From Lucinisca nassula (taxonomy: Eukaryota; Mollusca; Bivalvia; Lucinida; Lucinidae), in contig OY757012.1 of the NCBI GenBank assembly GCA_963580285.1, positions 172,319,994 to 172,383,993 of the forward strand: a stretch of 64,000 nt of DNA, written 5' to 3'. Under the pieces are notes generated by a model. The model saw only the letters and a list, made by a program, of their open reading frames with translations. It had not been told where the DNA came from and did not search any database. A program made the position numbers and the translations under genes. Below, piece after piece: positions 10,158 to 63,510 of the stretch (positions are counted from its first letter, which is position 1; the number at the start of each line of letters is the position of its first letter).

Positions 10158-10246
10158 CATCTAGTCAGGCCCAGAAAACATGTACACTTCATATTTTCCA
10201 GTTCTGTGGTGTATTCCTTGCTTCCAAAGGATACCCCTTTTATAGA
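10158..10246 (+). mobile_element. Retrozyme fragment starting at the ribozyme cleavage region
   Basis: CTAGTC then AGGCCCAGAAAACATG and TGTGGTGTATTCCTTGCTTC match the 259-bp retrozyme monomer of 37.2-37.7 kb immediately downstream of its hammerhead core (CTAGTC^TGACCCAGAAAAC). Only the 3' rim of the ribozyme is present. The piece is wedged between two Naiad tails of opposite orientation. Confidence 0.6.
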
Positions 10247-10249
10247 ATA

Positions 10250-10785
10250 TATTCCTCTGCCTCTCGTCGAGCCCATCGGAGTCTAACTGTTGGTTTTCTT
10301 TTGTTGCAGCATTTCAGTAGATTTTGCTGTCGAGTCCTCACCGTTGTTTCATCTCTGTGGTTGTCTTATTTTTTTGTGTTCACGGAGATGTTGAACTGAT
10401 GAGTTAGGAGGCCTTCAAGCGGACTTAACAAATTATTTGTCTAAATTGCGACGGAAGTAAGGGCGAGGATTGTGGCAACGTAACATCGATTTATGCCCCC
10501 CAGTGGAATTCGTTTCACTGACCGTTCCAGGGCGGTTCTTCTGTTGCGGTTTATTTTTGTTATGGCCTGTCTTTGAGTGTTTGTATCGCTTATATTATTT
10601 TGTTTTGGATAGTCAATTGGCCATTTTGTGCGAACGTAACTGTCCTTTTGGCTTTGCGCTATTGATGTTTCCATTAGGGTCTATGTTTCATGTTTGTGTT
10701 TCTTTCCCTTTGGTGTCCTTCTGGGAATTGTGGGTTAATTGTATCGATTCCTGATCGTTGCCATCACTTCTATTTTCCTGCATAT
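10250..10785 (+). mobile_element. Naiad 3'-tail copy inserted in copy 2
   Basis: This plus-strand tail begins about CCCATCGGAGTCTAACTGTTGG, contains CTGATGAGTTAGGAGGCCTTC and TGGCCATTTTGTGCGAACG, and ends CACTTCTATTTTCCTGC. It lies inside the minus-strand copy 2 tail, so the two arms form a long imperfect inverted repeat with the retrozyme fragment in the loop. The open frames at 10,441-10,754 are read-through. Confidence 0.75.
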
Positions 10786-11341: not shown

Positions 11342-11347
<6 letters not shown>

Positions 11348-18060: not shown

Positions 18061-18101
18061 TACCTATGAATTATTAAAACAGACATATATTATTATGTAT
18101 T

Positions 18102-20740: not shown

Positions 20741-20762
20741 TTACGAGATACAGCCGATTTTT

Positions 20763-27210: not shown

Positions 27211-27252
27211 TTACCTATGAATTATTAAAACAGACATATATTATTATGTATT

Positions 27253-28118: not shown

Positions 28119-29095
28119 TTTCTGCAAACAAAGTGTAGTTTACAAGGACGTTCATTTTAATGACTTGTTCACGTGCAGTGATGAAAACAGGCTGTAGAAT
28201 AAGCACTTTTTATACACTTTTGAAACGTTTTAGTTTTAATTGTGATTCCCAACTTATTTGCTGTATATTTGTAGTGAAACACGATTTTAACTTAATATTT
28301 TGCCGCTCAAATATACGGATAGTTCGATTTTCGTAATCAGTCTTGTCACATGTGTACATGCATGTAGTATTTAAATATTTATCGATAAATGAACTTGAAG
28401 CCATGAAATACTGTAACTTTAAACTCACGGCTTCTAACTTCAGAATTCTTACATCAGATTTCCAAATTCTCACTCTGTCATTTTTGATTTCATTAAATAA
28501 TAAGTTTGAAGAAGAGTTGGAGGTGGTAAAGTGAGAAGTCGGATTGAAATATTTAAACGTAACAAATGCATGGAATAAGAAGCTTGAAGTCAAATAAATG
28601 ATGTTAGAGCCATGGGGACTTTGTAAAATGACCAAACTAGAGGCCCGAAGCCCAAAGTAGCAAGCTGGAAGTAAGAAGTAATTAAGTTAGGCGTAATGGG
28701 TATTAAAGTTAGAAGCCATTCAGTGATTACATAAATATCTGTTTAAATAGACTTAAAGTCGGCATTTAAATATTTGACACTTGCCAATCTTAATCCGGTT
28801 TACGCTCTCTAGCTAATCTTTCATTTGATCTACACAGCCACATTCCTCCCAAATGTAAGTTTACTTTAGAAAGCAGAAATTACCATGTCACATTGTCTTC
28901 GATTTTGACAGGAGAGACATTTTGGAAGAGATTTCATGTATGGTTTTCTTCAAACGTAGTCCAGCTGTAAAGAGAGATATGATCTTGACAGAAAGACATG
29001 TCTTCCAATGGACCAATTCTGTTCTTTAATGATAGGCTCTTTAATGACCAAGAAGTTAAATAACGTCTGAAAGAGTTACCGCCAATGAATGTGAA

Positions 29096-29220
29096 AAAGA
29101 AGTGAAGGTAACGATCAGGAATCACACCTCCCATCAGAGACACCAAAGGCAAAGAAATACGAACATGAACTAACGAAACCCTTACAAAAGCATCACAAAC
29201 GGAAAGCCAGCAGGACCGTT
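29096..29220 (-). mobile_element. Naiad 3'-tail fragment (B)
   Basis: This is a duplicate of 19,942-20,055. It ends at GGACCGTTCCTAAG, the empty site of the insertion seen only in copy A. Confidence 0.7.
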
Positions 29221-29317
29221 CCTAAGTATGCTAAGGCTAAGTCACCTCTTAGATATTATTTTAAGACCATTTACAAATTATGTAAAAAAATAATTTACGA
29301 GATACAGCCGATTTTTA

Positions 29318-31150
29318 GCTCACGGTCACGTAGTGACGAGGTGAGCTTTTGGGATCACTTTTTGTCCGTCGTGCGTACGTGCGTGCGTAAACAATTTCTT
29401 CAAACGACATCTCCTCCCAAACCACTGATCAGATTTTAACCAAACTTCACAGGAATGATCCTTAGGTGGTCCTCTTTCTTAGTTGTTCAAATGGTTCCGG
29501 TCTGTTGCACATCTAGGTCACAGGAGCCAAAAATAGATTTTTTTGCACAAAATACTTAAAAATCTTCTTCTCTGAAACCACAAGGCCCAGATCTTTGATA
29601 TTTGGTATGAAGCTTCATTTAGTGGACCCCTACCAAGATTGTTCAAATTATAGTGCAGGGGCAAAAAATGCCCCTGCTCTGGGGCCCTTTGGTTTAACAT
29701 AGGCTTATATAGGGAAACTCTTTAATAAATCTTCTTCTCTGAAACCGCAAGGCCCAGGACTTTGATATTTGGTATGAAGCTTCATCTAATGGACCTCTAC
29801 CAAGATTGTTCAAATTATAGGCATTGGGCAAAAAAATGCCCCCGCTCTGGGACCCTTTGGTTTTACTTAGACTTATATAGGGAAAATCTTTAAAAATCTT
29901 CCTTCCCTGAAACCACAAGGCCTAGGTCTTGGATATTTGGTATGAAGCTTCATCTAGTGGACTTCTATCAAGATTGTTCAAATTATAGCCTTGAGACCAA
30001 AAATGTCCCCGCTCCACGGTCCTTTGGTTTTACATAGATTTATATAGGGAAAAAATCTTAAATAATCTTCTTCTCTGAAATTGCATGGCCCAGGACTTTG
30101 ATATTCGGTATGAACCTTCATCTAATGGACCTCTACCAAGATTGTTCAAATTATAGGCATTGGGCCAAAAATGCCCCCGCTCCGGGGACCTTTGGTTTTA
30201 CATAGATTTATATAGGGAAAAAATCTTAAATACTCTTCTTCTCTGAAACTGCATGGCCCAGGACTTTGATATTCGGTATGAACCTTCATCTAATGGACCT
30301 CTACCAAGATTGTTCAAATTATAGGCATTGGGCCAAAAATGCCCCCGCTACGGGGACCTTTGGATTTATATACACTTATATAGGTCAAATCTTTAAAAAT
30401 CTTCCTTCTCTGAAACCACAAGGCCTAGGTAGATGATATTTGGTATGAAGCTTCATCTAGTGGACCTCTATCAAGATTGTTCAAATTATAGCCCTGAAAC
30501 CATAATGTCCCCCTCCGGGGTCCTTTGGTTATACAAAGATTTATATAGGGACAATCTTAAAAAATCTTCTTCTGTGAAACCACAAGGCCGAGGTCTTTGA
30601 TATTTGGTGTGAAATTTCATCTAGTGGACCTCTATCAAGATTGTGCAAATTATAGCCATGGGGCCAAAATGTCGCCGCCCAGAGACCCTTTGGTTTTACA
30701 TAGACTTATAATGGAAACTCTTTAAGAATCTTCTTCTCTGAAATCACAAGGTTCATGTCTTTGATAGTTGGTATGGAGCTTCATCTAGTGGACCTCTACC
30801 AAGATTGTTCAAATTATAGCACTGGGGCCATAAATGCCCCACCCCGGGGCCCTTTAGTTTTACATAGACTTATATAGCCCCGGGGCCATTTGGTTTTGCA
30901 TAGGCTTATGTAGGGAATATCTTTAAAAAAAATCTTCTTCTCTGAAACCGCAATGCCCAGGTCTTTGATATTTGGTGTGTAGCTTCATCTAGTGGACCTT
31001 TTCCAAGATTGTTCAAAGTATAGCCTTTGGTGATGTTACCTTTAAGACCTCCATCAACATTATGCACATTAAAGCCCTGGGGCCAATAATGGCCCTCCCT
31101 GGGGCCCACTTGTTACACTATGGATCAGGTGAGCGATGCAGGGCCATCAT
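29318..31150 (+). repeat. Pearl-like core-repeat element, copy B and its true right end
   Basis: The left hairpin (AGCTCACGGTCAC) and about nine units follow as in copy A. The element then continues past the duplication end at 30,672 to its right terminus, GGATCAGGTGAGCGATGCAG followed by GGGCCATCATGGACCTC. The right end carries the GGTGAGC that pairs with the left-end AGCTCAC. The sequence beyond 30,672 exists once, which fixes the duplication boundary. Confidence 0.78.
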
Positions 31151-35800: not shown

Positions 35801-35896
35801 CTAGGGATACAGATCCGTATCCCTAGCCTCCGAGACTAGAGATACGGATCCGTATCTCTAGCCTCCGAGACTAGAGATACGGATCCGTATCTCTAG
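35801..35896. repeat. Three 26-bp palindromes in tandem
   Basis: CTAG(A/G)GATACGGATCCGTATC(T/C)CTAG-type palindromes begin at 35,801, 35,836 and 35,871, each centred on GGATCC (AGATCC in the first) and separated by the 9-base spacer CCTCCGAGA. Period 35 bp. Confidence 0.9.
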
Positions 35897-35907
35897 CCAC
35901 TGCCTTA

Positions 35908-36699: not shown

Positions 36700-37339
36700 T
36701 CAGTAATGTGTATGACAACCCCGGGCAGCACAACACTCCTGGCATTGCCGAGGCATGTAACGAACCAAATTTTGAACAGTTTGTAAAGTTAGTGTTTTTG
36801 AGATACGTCTGTAAAGAATGTCCCACACATGTTCTAATGGGTTTAAGTCAGGAGAACGTGCCGGTCAGTCCATTACTTCAATAGCCTCACGATAAAGGTA
36901 ATCCATACACACTCTAGCGGTATTGGGGCCGAATGTCCCAGCGAAAGGCCCCACAATAGGATCTAGAATTTCATCTCGATACCGTTATGCAGTCAATGTA
37001 CCTCCGTTCATCACGTACAAGTCCGTTCGGCCTTCATAAGAAATCCCATTACATACGATCACTGACCCCCTCCATATCTGTCTGTTTCCACAATGTTGCA
37101 GTCTTCGTATCGTTCTCCGGGTCGTCTCAAGACTCAAACACGTCGATCACATGCATTCACGTGAATTCCGCTTCCAGCTGCGAACAGAAATGTACGCCAG
37201 TCTTGCACTACAGCTACAGCTGGTGTCTGGGAATGTGTGGCGGCCTTAAAAAGTCTCCCTGCCCTACATCATAGTGTAGTTTATATTTTCTTGTCCTTTG
37301 GGATCATCGATTCCATTGTGGAATTTTGAAAATATTTGA

Positions 37340-37385
37340 GGGTCACTGATGAGGCCTAATTGGCCGAAACTAGCTAGTCTGACCC
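37340..37385 (+). ncRNA. Hammerhead ribozyme, type I (dimer unit 1)
   Basis: Stem I 5' strand GGGTCA, core CTGATGA, stem-loop II GGCC-TAATT-GGCC, core GAAA, short stem III CT-AGCT-AG, cleavage triplet GTC, stem I 3' strand TGACCC. All core bases are consensus. Predicted cleavage follows C37,379. Stem I is open, so it is type I. The tiny stem III suggests activity mainly as a dimer. Confidence 0.92.
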
Positions 37386-37598
37386 AGAAAACATTACACT
37401 TCATATTTCCGGTTCTGTGGTGTATTCCTTGCTTCCAAAGGATAACCCTTTTATAGAACATATTTAACGTCACTACAGCTGGTGTCTGGGAATGTGTGGC
37501 GGCCGTAAAATGTCTCCCTGCCCTACATCATAGTGTGGTTTATATTTTCTTGTCCTTTGGGATCATCGATTCCATTGTGGAATTTTGAAAGTATTTGA

Positions 37599-37644
37599 GG
37601 GTCACTGATGAGGCCTAATTGGCCGAAACTAGCTAGTCTGGCCC
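37599..37644 (+). ncRNA. Hammerhead ribozyme, type I (dimer unit 2)
   Basis: Identical to unit 1 in the core and stems II and III. The 3' strand of stem I is TGGCCC, which keeps pairing with GGGTCA through one G-U wobble. Predicted cleavage follows the C of GTC. Confidence 0.9.
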
Positions 37645-38479
37645 AGAAAACATTACACTTCATATTTCCGGTTTTGTGGTGTATTCCTTGCTTCCAAAGG
37701 ATAACCCTTTTATAGAACATATTTGCAATCGCCAGTTCTGATGTTCTTCGGCAAACTTACATCGCCGTGCACGATGTTGCCTGTTGAGAATAGGCCTCTT
37801 GCCGGACATCTGACCCTCATATCACATTCATGTAACCTGTCACGTATTATTTGATCGAATATCATTTGACCAACTGCATGCTGAAAATCGATTTGTAGCC
37901 TTCTCGGCCTGTACTGCCGATTTCGTAGCGCTAGATTTCGAAGATATTGATCTTCCCTTTGTGACGCCATGCCGTGTCGGCCTTGTCCTTCTCGTCTAGT
38001 AAACTCGCCCGTCTCCTGGAAGCGTCTCCATAGCCTGGCAACAACACTTCTCGACACACCAGCAACGATCTGTTGGGTGTACCCACTTTCAAGCAAAGGG
38101 ACAGCTTGAGCGACCCCAACTTCTTACAAGAACCGCCTAACACCATATGAAGTCACTATGAAGCAAAAACAACGCTTTACCGAATGATTGACATGTTTCT
38201 GACCCACACTCAAATTTTGAACAGATCGCCCCATACCGAATTTCAGCCGTTTTATAGGGTATCCATGCTGTAGCTCACATTCTTGCTTTGCGCGTGAATC
38301 TTGCTTCTTGACGTCTGCACGAACATTGTTAAGAGATGTCACATTAAAATAGTGTCTTCCTTGAGTTTGAAAATTGCCAAGCGGTGATGTTATACTGCTT
38401 TTAAAAAAGTGTTCCTTTAATTGTTTTGACCAGTGTATAAGCAATACATATATAGGCAAAGACGAACTACAACAAAAGT

Positions 38480-38760: not shown

Positions 38761-39835
38761 AGAAACATGCGGCATCGTAAAACAAAACCTGAACAATCTT
38801 TGGTCCCGCACGACCTTAAACTTAAATATTAAACCAAATCTGGCCCGAACATCATCATCTGGTTCAAGAAATATAGTGCATACAGTGCAAAATTTGCTAA
38901 TCTCTGCATTTGTGTGACCATGAAAATTAAGTTTAAAAAATCTAAGTCTTTGATAGATTGCAATTATTTAGTGTACGGAGTGCAAAATAATTCATAATTG
39001 TTTTCTGGAGAGAAGATGTGGACAAGCTATTTTTGGCCTAAATGGGACATTAGATTGGAGCTTGTAACCTTTAAAAGAAAGCCATTGTCACTTAAAACTA
39101 GCTCCAAACTCTTTCAGGGGTCATGACAAAAAATCTTTTCTGGCTTAATATGCGTATTTTGGGAGCCTGTGACCTTGGAAATCTGGTCATACCTACAAAT
39201 ATCTAATTACTTTTTACCCCTGACCTATAAAGGAAAATATTCCAGTTTGGTACAGTCATATAAGGGTCTTTGCTCGGCGATATATGAATGCCAACATACC
39301 AGAAACAACTGCATACAGGCATATAGGCTTGTGCCATGACTGCAACAGTACACAGAGATTTGCTTTAGCTCTGAGCGCCCATTTCCAAGTAATCATATAT
39401 AATACATCATCTATGTTTATTCTTTTTCATTCAATTGTAGTTTTAAGATACATTATAACATAAGATTTTGAATAAATAAAACACTTCCTTAAATTAAAAC
39501 GGTCACCTGTATAGTACATAAAAAGCGGTCCTCAGATATTAATGCCTCAAAAATGGTACGATTATCAATTTGCCTGTGGCAATTTGCACAGGAGGTAGTT
39601 GGGAAGATAGCCATTTATTTTCTGTCTTGTTTGCGCTAATTCCCTTGATTATCAGCACAGCTGAGAAAGGTGATGTCCGTATAAGTCCGGTATGTATGTG
39701 TTTTAAAGAAGAATTGATTTCATTTTCATTGCACTATACCTGTCATATAAATAAAAAAGAAGTTTTTCAGCACAAAACATCACATTTTACAAGTTCATGA
39801 AATCAGTACCATTGTAAACTCTGTTTTATCCATAG
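38761..39835. other. No recognised gene
   Basis: Mostly AT-rich sequence. A plus-strand frame ending near 39,690 encodes a hydrophobic stretch (HLFSVLFALIPLIIS) followed by a GTATGT donor-like site. No in-frame ATG or family match supports a gene. Confidence 0.3.
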
Positions 39836-40295
39836 GACAAAGGGTTATTTGGATGATTTATTTAATATTGACAATAATTATTTCGATGGTTTGACCAGTC
39901 AAATTTACCCACCAGAACTTCAGTTAAATAAAGCATTTTCTTCTGATACCAAGGACCCCGTTTTGATTTACATCTATCTGTTGCAAAATGGGTTTGTTTC
40001 CTGCACAATATATGATAAACGCGGTGATTTTGATTTTGAGCTTGTATTATTTTCTTTCTTGGGTGGCGATGTTCCTCGCGCAGCATCCTATGGCGTTTAT
40101 ATTTCGCAGTTAATTAAATTTGCCAGAGCGTCTAGTCATGTAACTGACTTCATCACCCGTAATAAATTGTTAAATATTAAACTTCTTAATTAGGGTTATC
40201 GGTATCATAAACTACGCAGTGCCTTTTCAAGATTTTAAAGATGTCATCCCGATTTAATTTAAAACTCAATGTTGGACTTAAATTTCTTCTGCAAC
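39836..40295 (+). pseudogene. Naiad-type PLE RT fragment, copy 3
   Basis: It begins within RT motif C (GYLDDLFNIDN) and runs through FDGL, YPPELQLNK and IYDKRGDFDFE, then VPRAASYGVYISQLIKFAR and TRNKLL. A TAG follows, then GYRYHKLR. It is 5'-truncated and ends abruptly at about 40,295, where a Naiad tail starts without the C-terminal 80 residues. Confidence 0.85.
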
Positions 40296-40545
40296 AAGGA
40301 ATTGGTTTCACTGACCGTTCCCAGGCGGTTCTTCTGTCGCAGTTTAGTTTAATTATGGTTTTTCTTTGAACGTGTGTATCGCTTGTATGTTTTGTTTTCG
40401 ATAGTCATTTCGCCATTTTTATGTGATTGTAACTGTCGTTAATGCTTTCCGCTATTGGTGTTTCCGATAGGGTCTAGTTATTGCATGTTTGTGTTTCTTT
40501 CCCTTAGGTGTTTTGAAGAAATTATTAGTTTAAATCGCGACGGAA
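40296..40545 (+). mobile_element. Naiad 3' tail joined to copy 3
   Basis: ATTGGTTTCACTGACCGTTCC to TTTGTGTTTCTTTCCCTTAGG, joined directly to the RT fragment and so reflecting an internal deletion. The last bases are replaced by a short direct piece, AATCGCGACGGAAGTAAGG. Confidence 0.7.
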
Positions 40546-43519: not shown

Positions 43520-43830
43520 TATACAACGAATGGTGAATCAAAATGTTAAATTCAACATATAGGGACAACAGAAGGACGGCTGCAATCAGACGTCCGCCGA
43601 CATAAGGCGTTACTTGGAAATTCAATACTAACTTTTGAAGCAATGACAACACACAACTGAAATCTGTCGAGGGGACAAGTTTTCTCATATCCCGACGAGC
43701 TAGTTTTGGCCAATTAGGCCTCATCAGTAATCCTGAGATGTTTTCAAATTTCGTGGTGGAATCAGTTCCAAAACGACTGGAAAGTAACTCCCGCACTATT
43801 ATGAAGGCCGCATGCTTATCGACCTGAACG
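43520..43830 (-). mobile_element. Decayed retrozyme monomer
   Basis: In reverse, GATTCCACCACGAAATTTGAAAAC leads into a hammerhead-like core, as in the 37-kb monomers (GATTCCATTGTGGAATTTTG...). The remaining sequence is diverged. The 122-codon frame covering it is not a gene. Confidence 0.65.
43691..43733 (-). ncRNA. Degenerate hammerhead ribozyme
   Basis: CTGATGA and stem-loop II (GGCC-TAATT-GGCC) are intact, but GAAA has become AAAA, the stem III closing pair is altered and stem I (GGATTA) no longer pairs with the 3' strand. It is predicted inactive. Confidence 0.7.
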
Positions 43831-44374: not shown

Positions 44375-44944
44375 CGCATCTTAGAACGTGATAACGCAAT
44401 CTACGAAATTTGGAAATTCACTAGTAGATTAAATATGCAAATAAGTTACATACGCTCCGTAACGTTACACACACGGCGTTCTTAATGACGTTCCGTGTAT
44501 TTATTTTTAATAAAACTCATGAATACAATGCGTTTTTATTGTCATCTGATAGCTGAAATCTTGCATTCGTGTTCATCTGTTATTGAATTTTATTAAACTC
44601 GTTGAGCCATGCATTTTATCTGATTTCCTCAACTCGTTTAAGTAAATTCAATAATACATGACCACTCATGTAAGATCCTCTATAGAGAACGTAGCAGCCG
44701 GATAAGACTACATGAACGTTCAAGCGCACATACTCAGGTGTTTGCTTTTTTCTCAAATGACACGCTCAAACGTAATACTATGGACACATAGACGAACCAC
44801 GTTACTGGCAGGTCCCTTGCGTTGCCGGCATTAATCGACGTTTTTTTAAACAAATCTTATTTCTACTTATTGCAGTTGTGTTACCTGTAAAAGGATTCTC
44901 CGTACTTCATCAATAGTACTGTTTATTTACTAAGATTATGAAAC
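44375..44944. other. No recognised gene
   Basis: Unique-looking sequence with several CG dinucleotides (ACGTTACACACACGGCG near 44,460) just upstream, on the minus strand, of the candidate exon. No repeat was recognised. Confidence 0.35.
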
Positions 44945-45934
44945 TATTGATAACCCTCATTTCGATCATATGGTTAAGGACATATATCCTGCAGAACTAC
45001 AATTAAACAAGGCTGATTCTTCCGATACCGATATGCCGTTTCTGGGTTTGAATTTATCTATAGATAATGGAATCATTTCGTCAAATATTTATGGCAAACG
45101 GGATGATTTTGATTTCGATATTGTTAATTTCCCGTTTCTAGACGGTGATGTTCCCAGACGTCCTTCTTATGGAGTGTACAATTCTCAACATATTCGTTTC
45201 GCTGGAGCTTCTACTGGTGTCAACGCTTCCAACAATCGTAACTTGTTCTTTACTGATAAACTCTTAAAACAGGATTGTGGCCACGTAAAATCGATTTAAG
45301 CCCCCCAGTGGAAATCTTCCACTGACCGTTCCAAGGCGGCTCTTCTGTGGCGATTTATTTATGTTGTTGTTTGTTACTTACTGTGTGTATCACTTGTGTC
45401 TTTTGGTTTTGGATGGCCATATGGCCATTTTGTGGGAAAGTAACTGTCCTTATGGCCTTCCTTTGTTTGGGTTTCCATTATGGTCTGGTCGCTTAATGTT
45501 TGTATTTCTTTCCCTTTGGTGTCTTTTATGGGTGGAGTAAGTTAATTGTATCAATTCCTGATCTTTGTTTTACTTCTACTTTTTATAGGTATCATAAACT
45601 TCGCAAAGCATTTTCGAAGTTTTTCCATAAACACTATGAATTGATTGAAAAAAAATATAATGTCAGCTTGAAGAAACTTCTACAACAAGGGGTGTCGCAA
45701 CTTGTATTTTATGGAGATTTGCTTTATAAATTTCAGAAAATTTTAGACAAACCTAATTTTTCGGAGAAGTTCAAACAGACTACCATTCGTTATAACAAGG
45801 TTGGGAACAGTTTAGAAATCAAGCGACAGACAGCACGTATGATTGTCGGTCGAATCACGGTAGACAGCTATGCTTGACTCTTTGATTGCACGGCGGCGGG
45901 TCAGGCTTCAGACTCAATAACGGCTTCGGTATAA
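44945..45934 (+). pseudogene. Naiad-type PLE RT C-terminal part, copy 4 (interrupted)
   Basis: It starts just after RT motif C with HFDHMVKDIYPAELQLNK, then IYGKRDDFDFDIVNFPFL and VPRRPSYGVY, to KLLKQ at 45,272. A Naiad tail is inserted there (45,273-45,582). The frame resumes GYHKLRKAFSKF-like text, then LKKLLQQGVSQLVFYGDL, and ends at TAA 45,932-45,934 after AGQASDSITA. A TGA at 45,875-45,877 lies in the sequence SYA(TGA)LFDC; the full-length copy has Ser there. The residues are well conserved, so the fragment is relatively young but broken. Confidence 0.85.
45273..45582 (+). mobile_element. Naiad 3'-tail inserted in the RT frame of copy 4
   Basis: GATTGTGGCCACGTAAAATC to TTTTACTTCTACTTTT, same orientation as its host gene. 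It is bounded exactly by the RT codons for LLKQ and the continuation YHKLRKAF, so it is an independent insertion. It belongs to the ATGGCCATATGGCCAT subfamily of the full-length copy. Confidence 0.88.
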
Positions 45935-46340: not shown

Positions 46341-47935
46341 CAGCTTACCTGACCGAAGGTCATGGTGAGCTTTTGTGACTGTGAGATGTCCGGCGACATG
46401 CGTGCGTACACTTCTTGTTAACACTCTAGAGACCACAGTTTTAATCCAGTCATCATCAATCTTGGTCAGAATGATCATCCTGACGATACCTCGGCCAAGT
46501 TCAAATATGGGTCGTGTCGGGTCAAAAAGTAGGTCACCAGGTCAAATCAAAGGACAACCTTGTTAACACTCTAGAGGCCACAGTTTTGGTCCAATAATCC
46601 GCAAACTTGCTCAGGATGATCATCCTGACAGTATCTCGTTCAACTTCGAATAGGGGTCATGTCGGGTCAAAAAGTAGGTCAGTAGGTCAAACCATAGAAA
46701 AACCTTGTTAACACTCTAGAGGCCACAGTTTTGGTCCAATCATATTCAAACTTGCTCAGAATGATCAACCTGATAATATTTCGGTCAAGTTTGAATATGG
46801 GTCATGTCGGGTCAAAAGTAGGCCAGTAGGGCAAATCATAGAAAAACCTTGTTAACACTCTAGAGGCCACAGATTTGGTCCAATCATCCTCAAACTTGGT
46901 TAGAATGATCATCCTGTCAATATCTCGATCACGTTCGAATATAGGACATATAGGGTTAAAAAGTAGGTCAGAAGGTCAAATCATAGAAAAACATTGTTAA
47001 CACTCTTGAGGCCCCAGTTTTGGTCCAATCATACTTAGCCTTGCCCAGAATGATCATCCTGACAATATCTCGGTCAACTTCGAATATGGGTCATGTGGGA
47101 AAAAATAGGTCAGTAGGTCAAACCATAGAAAAGGCTTGTTAACCCTCTAGAGGCCACAGTTGTGGTCCAATCATTCTCAAACTTGCTCAGAATGATCATC
47201 TTGACAATATCTAGGTCAAGTTTGAATATTGGTCATGTGATGTCAAAAAGTAGATCAGTAGGTTAAATCATAGAAAAACCTTGTGAACGAACTAGAGGCC
47301 ACAGGTTTGATCCGATCATTATCAAACTTGCACAGAATGATCAACTTAGCAATATCTCAGCCAAGTTCGAATATGGGTCATGTCGTTCAAAAAGAAGGTC
47401 AGAAGGTCCAATCCTAGAAAAATCTTGTGAACACACAAGAGGCCACAGTTTCGGTCCGATCATCATCAAACTTGCCCAGAATGATCATCTTGGCAATATC
47501 TCAATCAAGTTCGAATATGGGTCATGTTGGGTCAAAATGAAGGTCAGTATGTCAAATCATAGAAAAACATTGTGAACACTCTAGAGGCCACGAATTTGGT
47601 CCGATCGTGATCAAACTTACTCAATCTCGGTTAATTTCGAATATGGGTCATGTCTAGTCAATAAGTGGGTGAGTAGGTCAGAGTTCATAGGAAAACCTTG
47701 ATAACACACTAGAGGCCCCAGTTTTGGTCTGATCATCATCAAACTTTCTCAGAATGATCATCCTGACAATATCTGGGTCAAGTTTGAATATGGGTCATGT
47801 GGGGTCAAAAAGTAGGTCAGCTGGTCAAATCATAGAAAAACGTTGTGAACACTCTTAGAGGCCACAGTTCTGGTCGAATCATCATAAAACTTGCTCAGAA
47901 TGATAATCTGGACAATATCTCTGTGGGTTATGTCA
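46341..47935 (+). repeat. ~133-bp tandem array with hairpin head
   Basis: The head is CAGCTTACCTGACCGAAGG with TCATGGTGAGCTTTTGTGAC. About twelve units follow: AACACTCTAGAGGCCACAG, TTTTGGTCCAATCATC, TCAGAATGATCATCCTGAC, AATATCTCGGTCAAG, GTCAAAAAGTAGGTCAGTAGG. The units are more diverged from each other than in the sister array at 61.2-63.5 kb. Confidence 0.9.
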
Positions 47936-49372: not shown

Positions 49373-52300
49373 TTACGTTGGAGCCGTCATAGAATCTGAG
49401 GCCTGACCCACCGGCGTGCAATTAAAGAGGGAAGCAAAGTTGCCAACCGTGATTGGGTTAACTACCATGCATGCAGTCTGTCGTATAATATCCATGTTGT
49501 ACCCAATCTTTTTATATCGAAGAATGATTTTACGAAATTGGGTGCTGAAGTTATTGCGGTTATATATTTTTCTAAATTTATATACTAAGTCACCATAAAA
49601 TTCGGGTTCCGATAGACCTTATTGCAGAAGAGATTTAAGTCCAATATTGAATTTTGAAATTAAATCAGAATGGCGTCTAAAAAATTTTGAAAAGGCTTTG
49701 CGTAGTTTATGGTACCGATAACCCTGATTAATGAGTTTAGCCGTTAATAATTTATTACGAGTGTTGAAGTCAGTTACATGACTACACACTCTAGCAAATC
49801 GAATTAATTGCGAAATATAAACGCCATAGGATGGCGCACGAGGAACATCACCATCCAAAAAAGGAAAATTTACAATCTCAAAATCAAAGTCATCGCGTTT
49901 ATCATAAATTTTGCACGAAACAAATCCATCTACAATAGATAGATGTAAATCCAAAAACGGGGCCTCGGTATCAGAAGAATTTGCTTTATTTAACTGAAGT
50001 TCTAGGGGGTAAATTTGACTGATCAAACCATCAAAATAGGTATTATCAATATTTAATAACTCATCTAAATATCTAGAAGTAGAGCTAAAACCTTCAATAA
50101 TTTCAGATTGGTTATCAATGGAAAGTGACAAAATGAAGTCTCTTTCATAACAATACAAGAACAGATCAGCCACAAGAGGTGCGCAATTAGTACCCATCGG
50201 AATACCCACAATTTGTCTAAATAACTTAGTACCGAATGTAATATAAATATTGTCAAGTAGAAAGGTGAGGGCATCACACACTTTCTGACATGACCAAAGT
50301 GTATAATTCTTATGCTCTTTAGAAGTGAAAAATGCATTTCTGACATTACATGCAAGATAGAGAGAATCTTCTCTGTGAAAAGCCCATTCAATTAAATCAT
50401 TAAGCTTTTCTTATATAAGATTATGAGGAAGTGTAGTGTAAAGAGTGGAAAAATCGTAGGTAGACAGACTAGAAGCACGAAACTGTCTAGATTTCAATTT
50501 ATTTAAAACCTCATTCGAATTTTTCTATAGACCAAAACAGATTTCTTCCTGATCTTTCAAAGACTTTATCACAATATTTAATTACATGCGTTTTAATAGC
50601 AGTAAGACAGGAAGTTAATAATTTAGAAAGTTCAGTGGTAGTGCAAGAGCTAGAATTTGCAATAAACTGTGCTTTGTAAGGTTTTTTATGAAGTTTTGGT
50701 AACCAGTATAGCGTAGGAAGCTTGTCTTGGCCTTCGTTAACACACACAGCAAACTTGGTGGCTGAAAGACAAACATGTTTATCTACTATAACTCTCTCTT
50801 CAGCTAAAGCCTGAAGTTCATAGGCCTTAGTACCACCTGCTTAAGCGTGTTAACATAGTGGAGCCGTCACACAACGACGACGTTGTTAGCGGCCTTGTCT
50901 GCAGGGGCCAAAACAAACTTCTTATCAAATTCTTGAATACCTAGTTTAAGATGACGTAAAGACGTCTTGGGCTTAGGAGGTAATAAGTTAGTATTTTGAG
51001 AATAGAAAGAAATGCGTTTATTCACTAGTTTTAAAATGCTAAGTTTCCAGTCCTTAAGGGCTTTATGCTCACAATACTCTCGCTTACACCATCGATTACC
51101 GAATTCATTCAAGGAAGCAGCGATTTCATCTCTACATTTACTGAAATCAATTTTAGAAGGAAACCGATATTTCGGTCCTTTAGAAATTATATTCCTTATC
51201 CTAGAATCAGGAATAATTTTCAAATTGTCAGTAATTACATGACCAGCAGCGGGATAGCAATACTTTGAGTTTTTACAATCACATGAATCAGGAGTATTAG
51301 TATCAATATCAAGATCTGAAACAAGTTTATTGAAATGAAAAATGATAGATCTAACAGGTTTGTTATATTTTTAGCAAATTATAGGTGTTTCAGTATTTTG
51401 AAAATAAGCAGGAATGGAAGAAAGCACCGATCTCTCACGGAAGGTACTGGGCAAATCTATAAAATCCATACCTTTATTAATGAAGGATATTTTGAAGAAA
51501 TGGCGTTTATGATTAATTTCAGAATCAATGTAAGGACGGAGAGTATGCTGAGTATAGCCTCTAGTTAAGAGAGCCGCATCATATAACTGATGAGAACTAT
51601 CGTAGAATTTATTCGCCTTGGTGTCCAGAAGACGTAAAACAGAAACGGGTAATGAACTTAAAAATGAAAGCAAAGAGTGGCGTCCATGATTTAATAATAT
51701 GATTGACAGTCACTTCAGTCTAGTATTGTTTCGTTTAAACGCACGTGATTTACGTTTAAAGTTACCATTTTTCCTGGTGCCGTGAGATCTAGTTCTGCGT
51801 TTTCGACATTCCAGGAGTGAGAAAATATCAAAGTCCGGCATTCTGGAAATATTACCCTCATGATAAATGTTGTCATTAAATCCCAGTGGAAAAGGGGTCT
51901 GTAAAAATTTAATCCATTTCAGTTCCATTTCATGTCTTTTGATTATTTTGAATCTAGATGTAGAATTTGCATCGTAATAAAGTTTTTCCACTGGTTGTAT
52001 AACAATGTTATTTACAGAATGACCTGTACGTCGAAAGTGACGGTACAAGAAAGTGTCAGTTTTCTTAGGCTTACTCATTCTACGATAATGCTCGTTCAAT
52101 CTAGTTTTAAGCATGCGGTTAGTTTGACCGACGTACTGCATATTACAGTTTGCAGCACGTCAAGTAATTAGATAAATTAAATCTGTAGACTGTCAAGTCA
52201 AATCAGACATGTTAACTACAGAGAAGCGTCTACCGTTTACAGATGAAGTAACGGTAGACGCACTGCTTAAATGCGAACAACATCTGCACCTCTTGGCATT

Positions 52301-54149: not shown

Positions 54150-54784
54150 GGTGGCATTGATCAGGAAACGATACCATTAACCCAAAGCTCCCATCAAAGA
54201 TACCAAAGGGAAAGAAACACGAACATGAAATAACTAGACCTTAACTGAAACATCAATAGCGGAAAGTCAAAAGGACAGTTACTTTCCCACAAAATGGTCT
54301 ATGGCTATACAAAACAGAACATATAAGCGATACACACACTCAAGGACCAACCATAACCCGCCTTCGAACGGTCAGTGAAACGAATACTGGCGGGGGTGGG
54401 GGTGGGGGGGGGGGCTTAAATCAATTATACGAGGCCGAAACCCTCGCCCTGCCTTCCGTCGCGATTTAGACATATAATTTGTTCTGTCCGCATGAAGGCA
54501 TTCTAACTCCTCAGTGCAACATCTCCGAAAACACAAAATCCGAGCACAGAGATAAAACAACGGTGAGGAACCACTGAAATGCTGGGGCACAAAAAAAAAC
54601 TACAGTTAGACTCCGATGGGCCCGAACAGAAACAGAGCATCAGGCACCAACCAACATTACAAAAATAAATTCTATTCTAATTCTCAGTAAGCCTTTACGC
54701 TGGAATCTGGGAGCTGGCACACCGGAGTGCAATTAAAGATTAAAGACAGTGGTCAACCCTAATTGGGTGAACTACCATGCATGC
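54150..54784 (-). mobile_element. Naiad copy 6, 3' tail (host of the nested stack)
   Basis: It starts GGGTGGCATTGATCAGGAAACG and continues through CGCGATTTAGACATATAATTTG, CTCAGTGCAACATCTCCG, AGTTAGACTCCGATGGGCC and CACCGGAGTGCAATTAAAG to ACTACCATGCATGC, where a SINE interrupts it. It resumes at 57,504. The poly-G run near 54,390-54,413 is expanded. Confidence 0.85.
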
Positions 54785-55120
54785 ATCGGCCCCCGCCCAC
54801 CGGGGCTTGATGAAGTATATGGGTTGCATGATGCTTCCACGCAGAGTTAAAACCGACCAACACAAGAGTACTGATAAACCGCTTAGAGGATCTCAGCCTA
54901 CCCAGGCAAAACGGTGCGAATCGGCCAGTCCATGCTTATAAACCCTATAGGTTTCATTGGGCGGCAGGGCTTGAGATGTCATTTCATCTCAATGTCGGGT
55001 AAAAGTCCCACAAAATTGGAAGCAACGTCTCCAAAATGACCTTTACAGTGTTGACGAGGACATTAAAAATCTAAAATGAGTTCCTTTAAGAGCAGTGAAA
55101 ACATTCATAAGAAAGAAGAT

Positions 55121-55166
55121 GGGTCATACTACGTAGTTTCGGCTAATAAAGCCTCATCAGTGACCC
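55121..55166 (-). ncRNA. Hammerhead ribozyme, array motif 1 (3'-most)
   Basis: On the minus strand: stem I GGGTCA, core CTGATGA, stem-loop II GGCT-TTATT-AGCC, core GAAA, stem III CT-ACGT-AG, cleavage triplet GTA, stem I' TGACCC. All core positions fit. Confidence 0.92.
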
Positions 55167-55502
55167 TGTAATGATCCGGCAACGAACGCCAGAGGAAACG
55201 TACTACAATTTTGCGAATTTCGATCAGACAGTCGATTCAAAGACTGATATAAATCAAAATGGGGTCCAAATAATTAAAAACCTGTCTAGAATATGAGTCT
55301 AAACCAATAATTTATTTCTGATTTCTCAGAATATTTACGCTGATCTCAAAGGACCGAAAGTAAAATATAAACTGCACTATGGTTGATGTACGGGGAGACG
55401 TTTTCGGCAGCCACACGGCACAACACCAGCTGCAGTGATGGCAAATAAAAATCTAAAATGAGTTCCTTTAAGAGCAGTGAAAACATTCATAAGAAAGAAG
55501 AT

Positions 55503-55548
55503 GGGTCATACTACGTAGTTTCGGCTAATAAAGCCTCATCAGTGACCC
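55503..55548 (-). ncRNA. Hammerhead ribozyme, array motif 2
   Basis: Same sequence as motif 1; intact. Confidence 0.92.
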
Positions 55549-55884
55549 TGTAATGATCCGGCAACGAACGCCAGAGGAAATGTACTACAATTTTGCGAAT
55601 TTCGATCAGACAGTCGATTCAAAGACTGATATAAATCAAAATGAGGTCCAAATAATTAAAAACCTGTCTAGAATATGAGTCTAAACCAATAATTTATTTC
55701 TGATTTCTCAGAATATTTACGCTGATCTCAAAGGACCAAAAGTAAAATATAAACTGCACTATGGTTGATGTACGGGGAGACTTTTACGGCCGCCACACGG
55801 CACAACACCAGCTGCAGTGAAGGCAAATAAAAATCTAAAATGAGTTCCTTTAAGAGCAGTGAAAACAATCATAAGAAAGAAGAT

Positions 55885-55930
55885 AGGTCATACTACGCAG
55901 TTTCGGCTAATAAAGCCTCATCATTGACCC
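55885..55930 (-). ncRNA. Hammerhead ribozyme, array motif 3 (mutated)
   Basis: The first core base is changed (ATGATGA instead of CTGATGA after GGGTCA), stem III loop is GCGT and the 3' strand of stem I is TGACCT. Loss of the invariant C should abolish cleavage. Confidence 0.85.
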
Positions 55931-56267
55931 TGTAATGATCCGGCAACGAACGCCAGAGGAAACGTACTACAATTTTGCGAATTTCGATCAGACAGTCGAT
56001 TCAAAGACTGATATGAATCAAAATGGGGTCCAAATAATTAAAAACCTGTCTAGAATATGAGTCTAAACCAATAATTTATTTCTGATTTCTCAGAATATTT
56101 ACGCTGATCTCAAAGGACCAAAAGTAAAATATAAACTGCACTATGGTTGATGTACGGGGAGACATTTAACGGCCGCCACACGGCACAACACCAGCTGCAG
56201 TGAAGGCAAATAAAAATCTAAAATGAGTTCCTTTAAGAGCAAAGTAAACATTCATAAGAAAGAAGAT

Positions 56268-56313
56268 GGGTCATACTACGTAGTTTCGGCTAATAAAGCC
56301 TCATCAGTGAACC
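56268..56313 (-). ncRNA. Hammerhead ribozyme, array motif 4 (weakened stem I)
   Basis: The core is intact but the 5' strand of stem I is GGTTCA, giving one mismatch with TGACCC. Activity may be reduced. Confidence 0.88.
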
Positions 56314-56649
56314 TGTAATGATCCGGCAACGAACGCAAGAGGAAACGTACTACAATTTTGCGAATTTCGATCAGACAGTCGATTCAAAGACTGATATAAA
56401 TCAAAATGGGGTCCAAATAATTAAAAACCTGCACTAGAATATGAGTCTAAACCAATAATTTATTTCTGATTTCTCAGAATATTTACGCTGATCTCAAAGG
56501 ACCAAGTAAAATATATACTGCACTATGGTTGATGTACGGGGAGACATTTTACGGCCGCCACACGGCACAACACCAGCTGCAGTGAAGGCAAATAAAAATC
56601 TAAAATGAGTTCCTTTAAGAGCAGTGAAAACATTCATAAGAAAAAAGAT

Positions 56650-56695
56650 GGGTCATACTACGTAGTTTCGGCTAATAAAGCCTCATCAGTGACCC
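56650..56695 (-). ncRNA. Hammerhead ribozyme, array motif 5
   Basis: Same sequence as motif 1; intact. Confidence 0.92.
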
Positions 56696-57032
56696 TGTAA
56701 TGATCCGGCAACGAACGCCAGAGGAAACGTACTACAATTTTGCGAATTTCGATCAGACAGTCGATTCAAAGACTGATATAAATCAAAATGGGGTCCAAAT
56801 AATTAAAAACCTGTCTAGAATATGAGTCTAAACCAATAATTTATTTCTGATTTCTCAGAATATTTACGCTGATTTTAAAGGACCAAAAGTAAAATATAAA
56901 CTGCACTATGGTTGATGTACGGGGAGACGTTTTACGGCCGCCACACGGCACAACACCAGCTGCAGTGAAGGCAAATAAAAATCTAAAATGAGTTCCTTTA
57001 TGAGCAGTGAAAACATTCATAAGAAAGAAGAT

Positions 57033-57078
57033 GGGTCATACTACGTAGTTTCGGCTAATAAAGCCTCATCAGTGACCC
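57033..57078 (-). ncRNA. Hammerhead ribozyme, array motif 6
   Basis: Same sequence as motif 1; intact. Confidence 0.92.
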
Positions 57079-57415
57079 TGTTATGATCCGGCAACGAACG
57101 CCAGAGGAAACGTACTACAATTTTGCGAATTTCGATCAGACAGTCGATTCAAAGACTGATATAAATCAAAATGGGGTCCAAATAATTAAAAACCTGTCTA
57201 GAATATGAGTCTAAACCAATAATTTATTTCTGATTTCTCAGAATATTTACGCTGATCTCAAAGGACCAAAAGTAAAATATAAACTGCACTATGGTTGATG
57301 TACGGGGAGACGTTTTACGGCCGCCACACGGCACAACACCAGCTGCAGTGAAGGCAAATAAAAATCTAAAATGAGTTCCTTTAAGAGCAGTGAAAACATT
57401 CATAAGAAAGAAAAT

Positions 57416-57461
57416 GGGTCATACTACGTAGTTTCGGCTAATAAAGCCTCATCAGTGACCC
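57416..57461 (-). ncRNA. Hammerhead ribozyme, array motif 7 (5'-most)
   Basis: Same sequence as motif 1; intact. Only 24 bases of the unit precede it before the array ends at 57,485. Confidence 0.92.
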
Positions 57462-57503
57462 TGTAATGATCCGGCAACGAACGCCCAAACAAACAAACAT
57501 ATA

Positions 57504-57903
57504 ATGCATGCAGTCTGTCGTATATCATTTATACTGTCCATTCTGCTGGTTCAAGAAGGGCAGTGGTCAGTTTTTGGCGAAAGAATGTACACTGTACTGG
57601 TTAGGTAAACTGACCGGCTCAAAAAGGACCTAAGCTGGGCCGTTAAACTCCAATACAAACAAAACAAACAAATCATTTATAATGTACCCAATCTTTTTAA
57701 TTACGAAATTGGGTGGTCATTGCAAGTTTATACTGTTTTGAATGTATATAGTAAGTCACCATAAATTCGGGTTCCAATAGACCTCGTTGCAGAAGAGATT
57801 TAAGTCCAACATTGAATTTCGAAATTAAATCGGAATGACGTCTATAAAATAAAAAAAAAGCCTTGCGATGAATATGATATGAGAACCCTGATTAAGTAGT
57901 TTA
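57504..57903 (-). pseudogene. Naiad copy 6, RT C-terminal remnant
   Basis: After the SINE the Naiad resumes ATGCATGCAGTCTGTCG and continues, in reverse, with the C-terminal RT codons (CCATAAATTCGGGTTCC, GTTGCAGAAGAGATTTAAG, GGAATGACGTCTATAAAAT) to the truncation near 57,903. A second SINE is inserted at 57,534-57,671. Confidence 0.8.
57534..57671 (+). repeat. Second SINE-like insertion with 10-bp target duplication
   Basis: ATCATTTATA flanks both sides (57,524-57,533 and 57,672-57,681). The body starts CTGTCCATTCTGCTGGTTC, contains GGTAAACTGACCGGCTC and GGGCCGTTAAACTCC, and ends in an (AAAC)n-type tail. It is a different family from the unit at 54,785. Confidence 0.82.
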
Positions 57904-58320
57904 AGCTTTTTCCAATTATAAATCTATGAGAGCTAAGGAGTCCCGGGCCTTCGTCAATTTGGATCACAAGGGGCATGATTGGATTTGTGTAAGGGACCAC
58001 TTGGTGTTGCATTATTCTAAATATCTAAGCTTTGCGCCTTGTGGATTCAGAGAATAAGATTTTTTAAGTGTTTCCCATTATAAGTCTATGAAAGCTATAT
58101 GGCAACAAGAGTTTCCATCTGATCTGCCCCATACCATTATGCATTCTTTCCCCCTACCCGAAAAAGCGACACATGAAATTTAATCATGATTGGCCAACTG
58201 GCTTTAAAGATATTCTTATTTGAAAATGTGAATGGACGACGGACAACGGCCGGCGGACGCCGGAGCATTGGCATACTAATACCTCACATGAGCCTTCGGC
58301 TCAGGTGAGCTAAAAACCAA
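57904..58320 (+). repeat. ~165-bp core-repeat units and right-end hairpin
   Basis: TATGAGAGCTAAGGAGTCCC, GGGGCATGATTGG and GACCACTTGGTGTTGC belong to the family of 58,686-61,219. The right end has GACGGACAACGGCCGGCGG and the hairpin CATGAGCCTTCGGCTCAGG plus TGAGCT. Confidence 0.75.
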
Positions 58321-60546: not shown

Positions 60547-60833
60547 TTTGCATCCGCCCATATGGGCTTCAAGAAATAGATGGGCTGCATGATGCTTCCA
60601 CGCAGAGCTGAAAGCAACTGCACACGAGTACTGGTAAAGCGCTTAGAGTATCCAAGCCTGCCTAGGTAAAGTGTTTATAAACCCTATTGGTTTCATTGGG
60701 CGACAGGGCTTGAGATATCATTTCATCTCAATGTTGGGTAAACGGCCCACAAAACTTGGAGCAACGTCTCAAAATGACCTATACAGTGTTGAAGGGGACG
60801 TTAAACCGCAAACAAACAAACAAACAAAACAAA
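60547..60833 (+). repeat. SINE-like unit, copy 3
   Basis: CTAAATAT flanks both sides (60,539-60,546 and 60,834-60,841). The body has GGCTGCATGATGCTTCCACG, TTTCATCTCAATGTTGGG and GGGGACGTTAAACCGC, then an (AAAC)n tail. This copy defines the element ends at about 287 bp. Confidence 0.88.
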
Positions 60834-61219: not shown

Positions 61220-63510
61220 TTTAGCTCACCTGACCGAATGTCATGGTGAGCTTTTGTGACTGTGAGATGTCCGGCGTCGTCGTGCGTCGTGCCTCGTTCG
61301 TCGTGCGTGCGTAAACCTTTCTTGTTAACACTCTAGAGGCCACAGTTTTGATCCAATCATCATCAAACTTAGTCAGAATGATCATCATGACAATATGTCG
61401 GTCAAGTTGAATACGGGTCATGTCGCGTCAAAAAGTAGGTCACAAGGTCAAATTAAAGGAAAACCTTGTTAACACTCCAGAGGCCACAATTTTGGTCCAA
61501 TCATCTTCAAACTTACTCAGGATGATCATCTTGATAATATCTCGGTCAAGTTCGAAAATGGGTCATGTCGGGCAAAAAGTAGGTCAGTAGGTCAACCCAC
61601 ACAAAACCCTTGTAAGCGCTCTAGAGGCCACACTTTTGGTACAATCATCCTCAAACTTCCTCCGAATGATCATCCTGACAATATCTCGGTCAAGTCCGAA
61701 TATGGGTCATGTCGGGTCAAAAAGTAGGTGAGAAGGTCAAATCATAGAAAAACCTTGTTAACACTCTAGAGGCCACAGTTTTGGTCCAATCTTCCTCAAA
61801 CTTAATCAGAATGTTTATCCTGACAATATCTCGGTCAAGATTGAATATGGGTCATTTCAGGTCAAAAAGTAGGTCAGTAGGTCAGATCATAGAAAAACCT
61901 TGTTAACACTCTAGAGGCCAAAGTTTTGGTCCAGTCATCCTCAAACTTGCTCAGAATGATCATCCTGACAATATCTGGGTCAAGTTCGAATATGGGTCAT
62001 TTCGGGTCAAAAAGTAAGTCAGTAGGTCAGATCATAGAAAAACCATGTTAGCACTCTAGAGGCCACAGTTTTGGTCCAATCATCCTCAAACTTGCTCAGA
62101 ATGATCATCCTGACAATATCTTGGTCAAGTTCGAATATGGGTCATGTTGGATAAAAAAGGTCAAATCTTAGAAAAACCTTGTTAACTCTCTAGAGGCAAT
62201 AGTTTTGGTCCAATCTTCCTCAAACTTGGCCAGACTGTTTATCCTGACAATATCTGAATATGGGTCATTTCAGGTCAAAAAGTAGGTCAGGTCAGATCAT
62301 AGGAAACCTTGTTAACACTCTAGAGGCCACAGTTTTGGTCCAGTGATCCTCAAACTTGCTCAGAATGATCATCCTGCCAATATCTTGGTCAAGTTCGAAT
62401 ATGGGTTATGTCGGATCAAAAAGTAGGTCAGTAGGTCAAACCACGGAAAAACCTTGTTAGCACTCCAGAGGCAACAGTTTTGGTTCAATCATCCTCAAAC
62501 TTGCTCAGAATGATCATCCTTACAATATCTCGATCAAGTTTGAATATCGGTCATGTCGGGTAAAAATGTAGGTCAGTAGGTCAAATCATAGAAAAACTTT
62601 GTTAACTCTCTAGAGGCCACAGTTTTGGTCCAATCTTCCTCAAATTCGGCCAGAATGTTTATCCTGACCATATCTCGGTCAAGTTTGAATATGGGTTTTT
62701 TCAGGTCAAAAAGTAGGTCAGTAGGTTAGATCATAGAAAAACCTTGTTTACACTCTAGAGGCCACAGTTTTGGTCCAGTCATCCTTAAACTTGCTCAGAA
62801 TGATCATCCTGACAATATCTCGGTCAAGTTCGAATATGGGTCTTTTTGGGTAAAAAAGTAGGTAAGTAGGTAAAACCACAGAAAAACCTTGTTAGCACTC
62901 TATAGGCCACAGTTTTGGTCCAATCATCCTCAGAATGATCATCCTGACAATATCTCGGTCAAGTTCGATTAGGGGTCATGTCGGCCAAAGATAGGTCAGT
63001 AGGTCAAATCATAGAAAAACCTTGTTAACACTCTTGAGGCCACAGTTTTGGTCCAATCATCCTCAAACTTGCTCAAAATGATCATCCTGACAATATCTCG
63101 GTCAAGTTCGAATATGTGTCATGCCGGGTCAAAAAGTAGGTCATTAGGTCAAATAATAGAAAAACGTTGTCAACACTCTAGAGGCCACAGTTTTGGTCAA
63201 ATCATCATCAGACTTGCTCAGAAGGATCATCTCTACAAAATCTAGGTCGAATTCGAATATGGGTCATGCGGGGTCAAAAGTAGGTCAAATCATAGAAATA
63301 CCTTGTTTACACTCTAGAGACTGCAATTTTAGTCTAATTATCGTCAAACTTGCTCAGAATGATCATCTTGACAATATCAAGGTCAAATTCGAGTATGGGT
63401 CATGTGGGGTCAAAAAGTAGGTCAGTAGGTTAAATCATAGAAAAACCTTGTTAACACTCTAGAGGCCTCAGTTTCAGTCCAATCATCATCAAACTTGCTC
63501 AGAATTCTCC
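61220..63510 (+). repeat. ~133-bp tandem array with hairpin head
   Basis: The head is AGCTCACCTGACCGAATGTC with ATGGTGAGCTTTTGTGACTG and a CGTCGTGCGTCG tract. About seventeen units follow (CACTCTAGAGGCCACAG, TTGGTCCAATCATCCTC, GCTCAGAATGATCATCCTG, TCTCGGTCAAGTTCGAATATGG). It is the same family as 46,341-47,935. It ends at CTTGCTCAGAATTCTCC, after which unrelated sequence begins. Confidence 0.92.

Follow-up and report, generated by a model that had tools for sequence, protein, structure and literature searches.

Which kind of element is the tandem array at positions 55064-57485, and how could a sequence without coding capacity have been copied into this place? A first-pass annotation of the window (the whole stretch of 64,000 nucleotides analysed here) had read the array as an animal retrozyme, and its type I hammerhead ribozymes, 382-nt tandem units, GC content of 0.38 and lack of a long open reading frame do fit the published description of such elements (PMC7229834). 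TRF gave a period of 382, 6.3 copies and 97% matches over 55064-57485, and the RNA sense of the array is the minus strand, with the RNA 5′ end at 57485 and the 3′ end at 55064. The hammerhead cores lie on this strand at 57455, 57072, 56689, 56307, 55924, 55542 and 55160, with spacings of 383, 383, 382, 383, 382 and 382 in the unit alignment, so that TRF and the scans reproduce the earlier count of seven type I hammerheads at intervals of 382-383 bp. The array and its ribozymes are as follows:

55064..57485, minus strand: putative retrozyme array, 6.3 units of 382-383 nt (TRF and unit alignment)
57416..57461, minus strand: hammerhead 1, intact, predicted cut between 57422 and 57421 (pattern scan)
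57033..57078, minus strand: hammerhead 2, intact (pattern scan)
56650..56695, minus strand: hammerhead 3, intact (pattern scan)
56268..56313, minus strand: hammerhead 4, with a stem I mismatch (pattern scan)
55885..55930, minus strand: hammerhead 5, core C3 changed to A and stem III altered, expected to be inactive (scan)
55503..55548, minus strand: hammerhead 6, intact (pattern scan)
55121..55166, minus strand: hammerhead 7, intact (pattern scan)

Six of the 6.3 head-to-tail units are complete in the alignment, matching the six full monomers claimed before, and no stop-to-stop frame of at least 150 aa overlaps the array, in line with the claim that it lacks coding capacity; a list limited to frames of at least 150 aa contained none in the array or in the dimer of 259-nt units described below. 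Among the six complete units, 29 of 384 columns are variable; in 26 of these 29 the variant occurs in one unit only, the three informative columns fall on an A run and a CpG within 138-143, and each unit has 2 to 8 private changes. This star-like variation is as expected if the units arose at once and then decayed, and a linear multimeric RNA template for the array could also be compatible with it. Intact hammerheads would not by themselves prove that the array locus is active at present. When three of the six 382-nt units and one 259-nt unit were folded as circles, 60-62% of the nucleotides were predicted to be paired, with z-scores of -3.6, -2.1 and -2.6 for the 382-nt units and of only -1.4 for the 259-nt unit (100 shuffles each); the figure of more than 70% self-pairing quoted for metazoan repeats is above these 60-62% (PMC4918200).

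The consensus hammerhead of the 382-nt unit reads GGGTCA - CTGATGA - GGCT TTATT AGCC - GAA - ACTACGTAGT - A / TGACCC, the slash marking the predicted cut, and is of type I, with GTA as the cleavage triplet. The 10 nt of the stem III region, ACTACGTAGT, are palindromic over their full length, and 3 bp of stem III, closed by ACGT, are possible within a monomer. The scans agree that five of the seven ribozymes are intact, as first annotated, with defects only in the copy whose core lies at 56307 (stem I mismatch, GGTTCA against TGACCC) and in that at 55924 (CTGATGA changed to ATGATGA, plus one change in stem III). A structural scan for a stem I of 5 bp or more with no mismatch, together with CTGANGA, stem II, GAA, stem III and a cleavage triplet, matched the window seven times, in five ribozymes of the array and in the two of the 259-nt dimer (37346 and 37605), and found none in 100 Markov-simulated windows, both strands included. 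When one mismatch and an ATGATGA core were allowed, an extra, unrelated match appeared at 36503. The hammerheads of the window are full type I motifs, not the minimal form that lacks stem III or its loop, and a scan of the window for the minimal Penelope-type hammerhead found none. Pattern scans for the hammerhead and for the conserved block described below returned no match in collections of genome contigs and of viral contigs.

The annotation had also named an Infernal search with Rfam models as a check, an absence of matches above threshold being taken to speak against the ribozymes, and read literally this is the outcome, as no match reached the gathering score in the whole window. With E-values of up to 10 over 54500-58000, RF03152 (RAGATH-1-hammerhead) matched one copy in the right register at 22.6 bits (gathering 56.3) and RF00008 (Hammerhead_3) matched six copies in the wrong register at 21.4 bits (gathering 48.5), and no type I hammerhead model was among the matches listed. 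The very short stem III may well keep the Rfam score low. We consider this null result to be outweighed, because the hammerhead fold is supported by the comparison between the array and a second family, of which the window holds a dimer and a truncated copy, together with an old degenerate copy:

37208..37724, plus strand: second putative retrozyme family, dimer of 259-nt units, the last two T possibly belonging to the target (TRF, scans, alignment)
37340..37385, plus strand: hammerhead of 259-nt unit 1, intact, GTC cleavage triplet (scan)
37599..37644, plus strand: hammerhead of 259-nt unit 2, intact, one G-T pair in stem I (scan)
10161..10253, plus strand: 5′-truncated copy of the 259-nt family with the same 3′ end as the dimer (92.5% identity over 93 bp)
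43632..43807, minus strand: old degenerate retrozyme copy including a decayed hammerhead, ends unreadable (blastn, local alignment)

The hammerheads are intact in five of seven cases in the array, in both units of the dimer, where the cleavage triplet is GTC, and in none of one in the copy at 43632-43807, which reached a local alignment score of 138, whereas no score above 45 occurred in 200 shuffles. The fragment at 10161-10253 matches the 3′ part of the 259-nt unit; it is flanked by opposed copies of one dispersed repeat (9782-10160 on the plus strand and 10763-10255 on the minus strand). The alignment of one whole 382-nt unit with one 259-nt unit scored 132.5, and the best of 300 shuffles reached 46.0. 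Within it, the hammerhead is identical at 40 of 46 aligned positions, the linker from the hammerhead to the 3′ end at 40 of 56 (22 gap columns; as good a result came from 8 of 1000 shuffles) and the 110 nt beyond the 3′-end site at 86 of 101 (14 gap columns), and only 11 of the remaining ~150 nt of the 382-nt unit align to the 259-nt unit (139 gap columns). The core common to both families therefore spans ~230 nt, from the hammerhead through the block; on this unit alignment, one core with a weaker linker replaced a description of the families as sharing two separate blocks. The unit sizes and copy numbers (382-383 nt, 6.3 copies; 259 nt, two copies) lie within the ~150-450 bp, from dimers upward, given for retrozymes, and the GC contents (0.38 in the 382-nt and 0.42 in the 259-nt units) lie below the 45-50% given for them.

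Covariation was examined in ten hammerhead copies, nine of them distinct and the decayed copy included. The hammerhead structure pairs in 96.3% of the cells, and in 17.8-39.3% when it is slid by 1-3 columns. Two compensatory changes, each of them probably one event, separate the families: U-A to C-G in stem II, and C-G to G-C in the centre of the palindromic stem III. The number of double-change pairs says little when taken alone, because 315 of 500 shuffles reach two or more; the percentage paired and the covariation score were reached by none of the 500. The central pair of stem III requires two molecules or two units, and in dimer folding a double hammerhead with a 10-bp stem III was the minimum free energy (MFE) structure in eight of nine copies. 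The copy with the broken core was among these eight, and the copy with the stem I mismatch was the one that deviated. In both copies tested as monomers, the hammerhead lay above the MFE structure, at -13.2 against -14.5 and at -15.4 against -17.4, differences of 1.3 and 2.0 kcal/mol. Dimerisation of one copy gained -14.3 kcal/mol (shuffle mean -8.4, sd 3.0), a value equalled by 10 of 200 mononucleotide shuffles. Since the double hammerhead is mostly the dimer MFE and the monomer hammerhead lies above the monomer MFE, these folding models favour cutting as dimers, although monomers may cut as well. That the hammerheads work as single motifs and the palindrome in stem III is incidental seems to us rather doubtful: a 3-bp stem III with a tetraloop is possible, and the hammerheads of most invertebrate retrozymes are reported to be efficient as monomers (PMC7229834, PMC7761336), but neither monomer tested folds best as a hammerhead, nearly all dimers do so as double hammerheads, and the palindrome has been retained despite its changed centre.

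The ends of the copies bear on how such an element could return to DNA. In the RNA sense, the array ends in ...TTTTAGATTTTTA, the dimer in ...TATAGAACATATTT and the fragment at 10161 in ...TATAGAATATATT. In all three loci with readable ends, two of which belong to one family, the 3′ end falls within 3 nt of one place (the fourth locus is unreadable): the ends of the array and the dimer are 3 nt apart in the family alignment, and that of the fragment is at most 1 nt from that of the dimer. This site lies 63 nt after the hammerhead cut in the 382-nt family and 86 nt after it in the 259-nt family. At the 5′ side, the array begins 30 nt before a hammerhead core, the dimer begins beside its own 3′ end, after almost two rounds, and the fragment begins 6 nt before the cut site. 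By our own estimate, which assumes uniform and independent ends, such coincident 3′ ends would arise by chance in ~2 of 10,000 cases (7/382 x 3/259). A common 3′ end with varying 5′ ends is the pattern given by reverse transcription from one start site, and it suggests that copying starts at one fixed internal site. In the open-access literature searched, we found no mention of animal retrozymes that have a 3′ end in common. Directly 3′ of this end lies the conserved block:

57250..57348, minus strand: conserved block directly 3′ of the shared 3′ end (blastn of the 259-nt unit, alignments)
56965-56877, 56582-56486, 56200-56102, 55817-55720 and 55435-55338, minus strand: further copies of the block, six in the array (blastn, alignments)

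The block opens with a stem, formed by ACUGCA with UGCAGU in the 382-nt family, by GCUACA with UGUAGU in 259-nt unit 1, where the first base is the 5′ end of the element, and by ACUACA with UGUGGU in 259-nt unit 2. Between the families, it has undergone one two-sided change, from G-C to A-U, and each 259-nt unit has one G-U pair. The stem is part of the RNAalifold consensus, and a 382-nt unit folds into the same stem alone; it was not seen in the MFE folds of two single 259-nt units.

Evidence that elements of this kind have moved comes from the target of the dimer:

36816..38123 (approximate), minus strand: Tc1-like transposase pseudogene, split by the 259-nt dimer (blastn, translation of the flanks, relatives)
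37203..37207, plus strand: left copy of the target duplication TTGCA (read from the sequence and from uninterrupted relatives)
37723..37727, plus strand: right copy of TTGCA, in which TT is possibly the end of the element, leaving GCA

On the minus strand, the flanks of the dimer encode two transposase halves, ...AEEHQNWRL and DWRTFLF.... A motif across the insertion point was matched by 20 of 110 transposase relatives, all 20 with identical spacing, the other 90 having no motif match and being uninformative on spacing. Relative P0121 reads HQNWRLQDWRTVLF across this point, and the Tc1 relatives of named origin come from fish, from arachnids and from the snail Haliotis. The duplication measures 3 to 5 bp, as the terminal T could belong to the element, and for retrozymes more than 4 bp is given when a duplication is present. 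Another near-match around the dimer, considered as the target duplication, was replaced by TTGCA on the transposase frame. As the 259-nt sister element interrupts the transposase with a short duplication, such elements must have moved. No target duplication is evident at the 382-nt array. The array sits in the tail of a dispersed repeat, copies of which (60554-60818 and 1347-1625) continue into a CAAAC-rich tail, and TTTA at its junction could belong to either the target or the element. The right flank of the array (57486-57785) opens with CAAACAAACAAACATATAATG, and a similar tail with CATTTATAATG occurs again at ~57655-57690; the two tails look like the borders of a short SINE-like element.

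Neither the array nor the dimer encodes a reverse transcriptase or GIY-YIG endonuclease frame of at least 150 aa; reverse transcriptase fragments are found elsewhere in the window, among them:

49514..51370, minus strand: Penelope-like reverse transcriptase fragments (ORFs 49619-50410 and 50867-51370), candidate helper class

We provisionally class these fragments as Penelope-like from their motifs. Decayed reverse transcriptase fragments of this putative type lie in at least seven places (4592-4842, 11014-11790, 14742-14843, 23898-23999, 39831-40325, 44934-45925 and 49514-50026), two of which are copies within a tandem duplication at 13149-30672. Pfam returned nothing on six ORFs of the window and nothing above cut-off on three reverse transcriptase homologs, and the precomputed label PF26215 carried by some relatives was not reproduced. 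Among the relatives of the fragments (best 120 of 7998 scored), one is named, from a MAG of Candidatus Thiodiazotropha. Candidatus Thiodiazotropha are clam symbionts, and this relative is possibly host DNA in the MAG. A blastn comparison of the retrozyme units with the window gave no match to the reverse transcriptase fragments. The authors who described animal retrozymes favour Penelope-like elements as their helpers but find no conserved motif by which to decide (PMC7229834, PMC7761336).

The duplication at 13149-30672 is large, direct and in tandem, with 13149-20076 matching 22318-29228 at 98.4%, 20667-21154 matching 29221-29708 at 98.8% and 21352-22319 matching 29705-30672 at 98.9%. Its first copy has ~590 extra bases at 20077-20666, and 20072-20444 resembles repeats at 58865, 48807 and 45581 (96-98%) and at 43209 (83%). 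The window also holds two arrays of one ~145-bp repeat, ~80-82% alike (46414-47921 and 61321-63505), and a 35-bp tandem repeat at 35801-35898 with an inverted repeat around GGATCC in each unit (CTAGAGATACGGATCCGTATCTCTAG).

From these sequence features, we judge it probable, at about 0.8, that the array arose by one insertion, from a non-autonomous animal retrozyme that encodes no protein and follows the cycle proposed below. Head-to-tail repeats with 97% matches would also be left by a small satellite array that grew by unequal exchange and in which the hammerhead is a relic without a role, and the first descriptions of amphibian hammerhead repeats treated them as satellite DNA (PMC7229834). 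We regard this as improbable, since the array has only 6.3 units, whose variants are mostly private and not common to neighbours, the core recurs within 64 kb as a dimer of another size, a 93-bp fragment and an old copy, the compensatory changes retain the hammerhead, and the dimer has a target duplication. A mobile element copied by a LINE reverse transcriptase, its 3′ end being that of a linear transcript, for example at a polymerase III stop at TTTTT, has a somewhat better chance, and is still unlikely. The 382-nt array does end at GATTTTTA, which contains a run of five T, and Nematostella repeats with 15-bp duplications are LINE-like (PMC4918200); however, the 259-nt family ends at CATATTT without a five-T run, a stop in every unit would give no template of 6.3 units unless it was read through, and the present duplication does not exceed 5 bp.

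The array could also be part of a Helitron or Helentron carrying satellite-like repeats, as in oyster, and such carriers do exist in a bivalve (PMC7492417). The dimer, however, directly adjoins its target, with a short duplication. Helitrons are not known to make a target duplication, and we give this explanation hardly any weight.

The cycle of the retrozyme, as we propose it, would begin with sense-strand transcription of the genomic multimer. Neighbouring hammerheads would join through their palindromic stem III regions into double hammerheads, whose cutting would release 382-nt monomers, which a host tRNA ligase such as RtcB would close into circles. A reverse transcriptase from another element, most likely Penelope-like, would then start the cDNA at one constant, U-rich position inside the circle, 63-86 nt downstream of the hammerhead cut, with the 3′ end of the target as primer, and go through several rounds of the circle. 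Integration of the multimeric cDNA there would leave 5′ ends that vary from copy to copy and a target duplication that is short or absent. In this scheme, self-cleavage is predicted from the motifs and circularisation by analogy, circular retrozyme RNA being known from Mytilus (PMC7229834); we infer the rolling reverse transcription and the identity of the reverse transcriptase. Tentatively, and with more doubt than conviction, we propose that animal retrozymes carry a Penelope-type module, consisting of the hammerhead, a fixed internal start that lies 63-86 nt downstream of the cut, and a structured block of ~100 nt that recruits the reverse transcriptase. If this were true, each array would be one enzyme circling the RNA several times from the start site, and if the shared core and end hold genome-wide, the partner reverse transcriptase could be found by its start at that site on the circle.

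The kind of element is already known from mussels, and the new clue suggested here is where back-copying starts; to judge from the sequence, the 259-nt family, the compensatory changes that keep the hammerhead fold and the coincident 3′ ends are also new. The first-pass annotation names neither the 259-nt family nor the two older copies, and speaks of no palindrome in stem III and of no common 3′ end. Like the array, the non-LTR retrozymes of Mytilus galloprovincialis have type I hammerheads, units of ~350-390 bp, low GC and no long ORF (PMC7229834), and Penelope-like sequences occur in the genome that holds them (PMC7229834; Cervera and de la Pena 2020). In contrast to the mussel elements, as far as they are described, the present locus has a second, 259-nt family sharing a core with the 382-nt family, a common 3′ end with an adjacent conserved block, and a TTGCA duplication on the dimer with none evident on the array. 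The mussel hammerheads are reported without most of the tertiary contacts between loops 1 and 2 (PMC7229834). Clones of the Mytilus circRNAs carry the accessions MN642551-MN642576 (PMC7229834). The 382-nt family may be the same as the Mytilus elements, which were compared by description, or a close relative of them.

In the case of PAc, a Penelope-like element of Anolis, the purified protein starts reverse transcription internally, 111-118 into the ORF, and the hammerhead cut is at +26 (PMC11167929). As in the retrozyme, a hammerhead is followed by an internal start; by subtraction, the PAc start lies 85-92 nt beyond the cut, against 63 and 86 nt here (Frangieh 2024, PMC11167929). PAc, however, encodes a reverse transcriptase and an endonuclease, whereas the retrozyme encodes nothing; its start lies in an AC-rich stem-loop; it prefers AT-rich targets, whereas the target of the dimer is not AT-rich; and its hammerhead is described by stems I and II alone, in contrast to the full type I motif found here (PMC11167929). 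The likeness is one of layout, not of sequence, the blastn comparison having covered only the reverse transcriptase fragments of the window.

Plant LTR retrozymes are likewise non-coding, with repeated hammerheads and a circular RNA intermediate, but are described with mostly type III hammerheads, 400-1000 bp between them, LTRs and 4-bp duplications (PMC4918200), and with a PBS and a PPT (PMC7229834), whereas the hammerheads here are of type I and spaced by 259 and 382 nt. The hammerhead repeats of newt and axolotl resemble the array in their 330-350 bp units and dimeric hammerhead activity, and one axolotl family also has a weak stem III with a palindromic tetraloop (PMC7229834). From the amphibian repeats, as they are described, the present hammerheads differ in that stem III of the monomer can form 3 bp.
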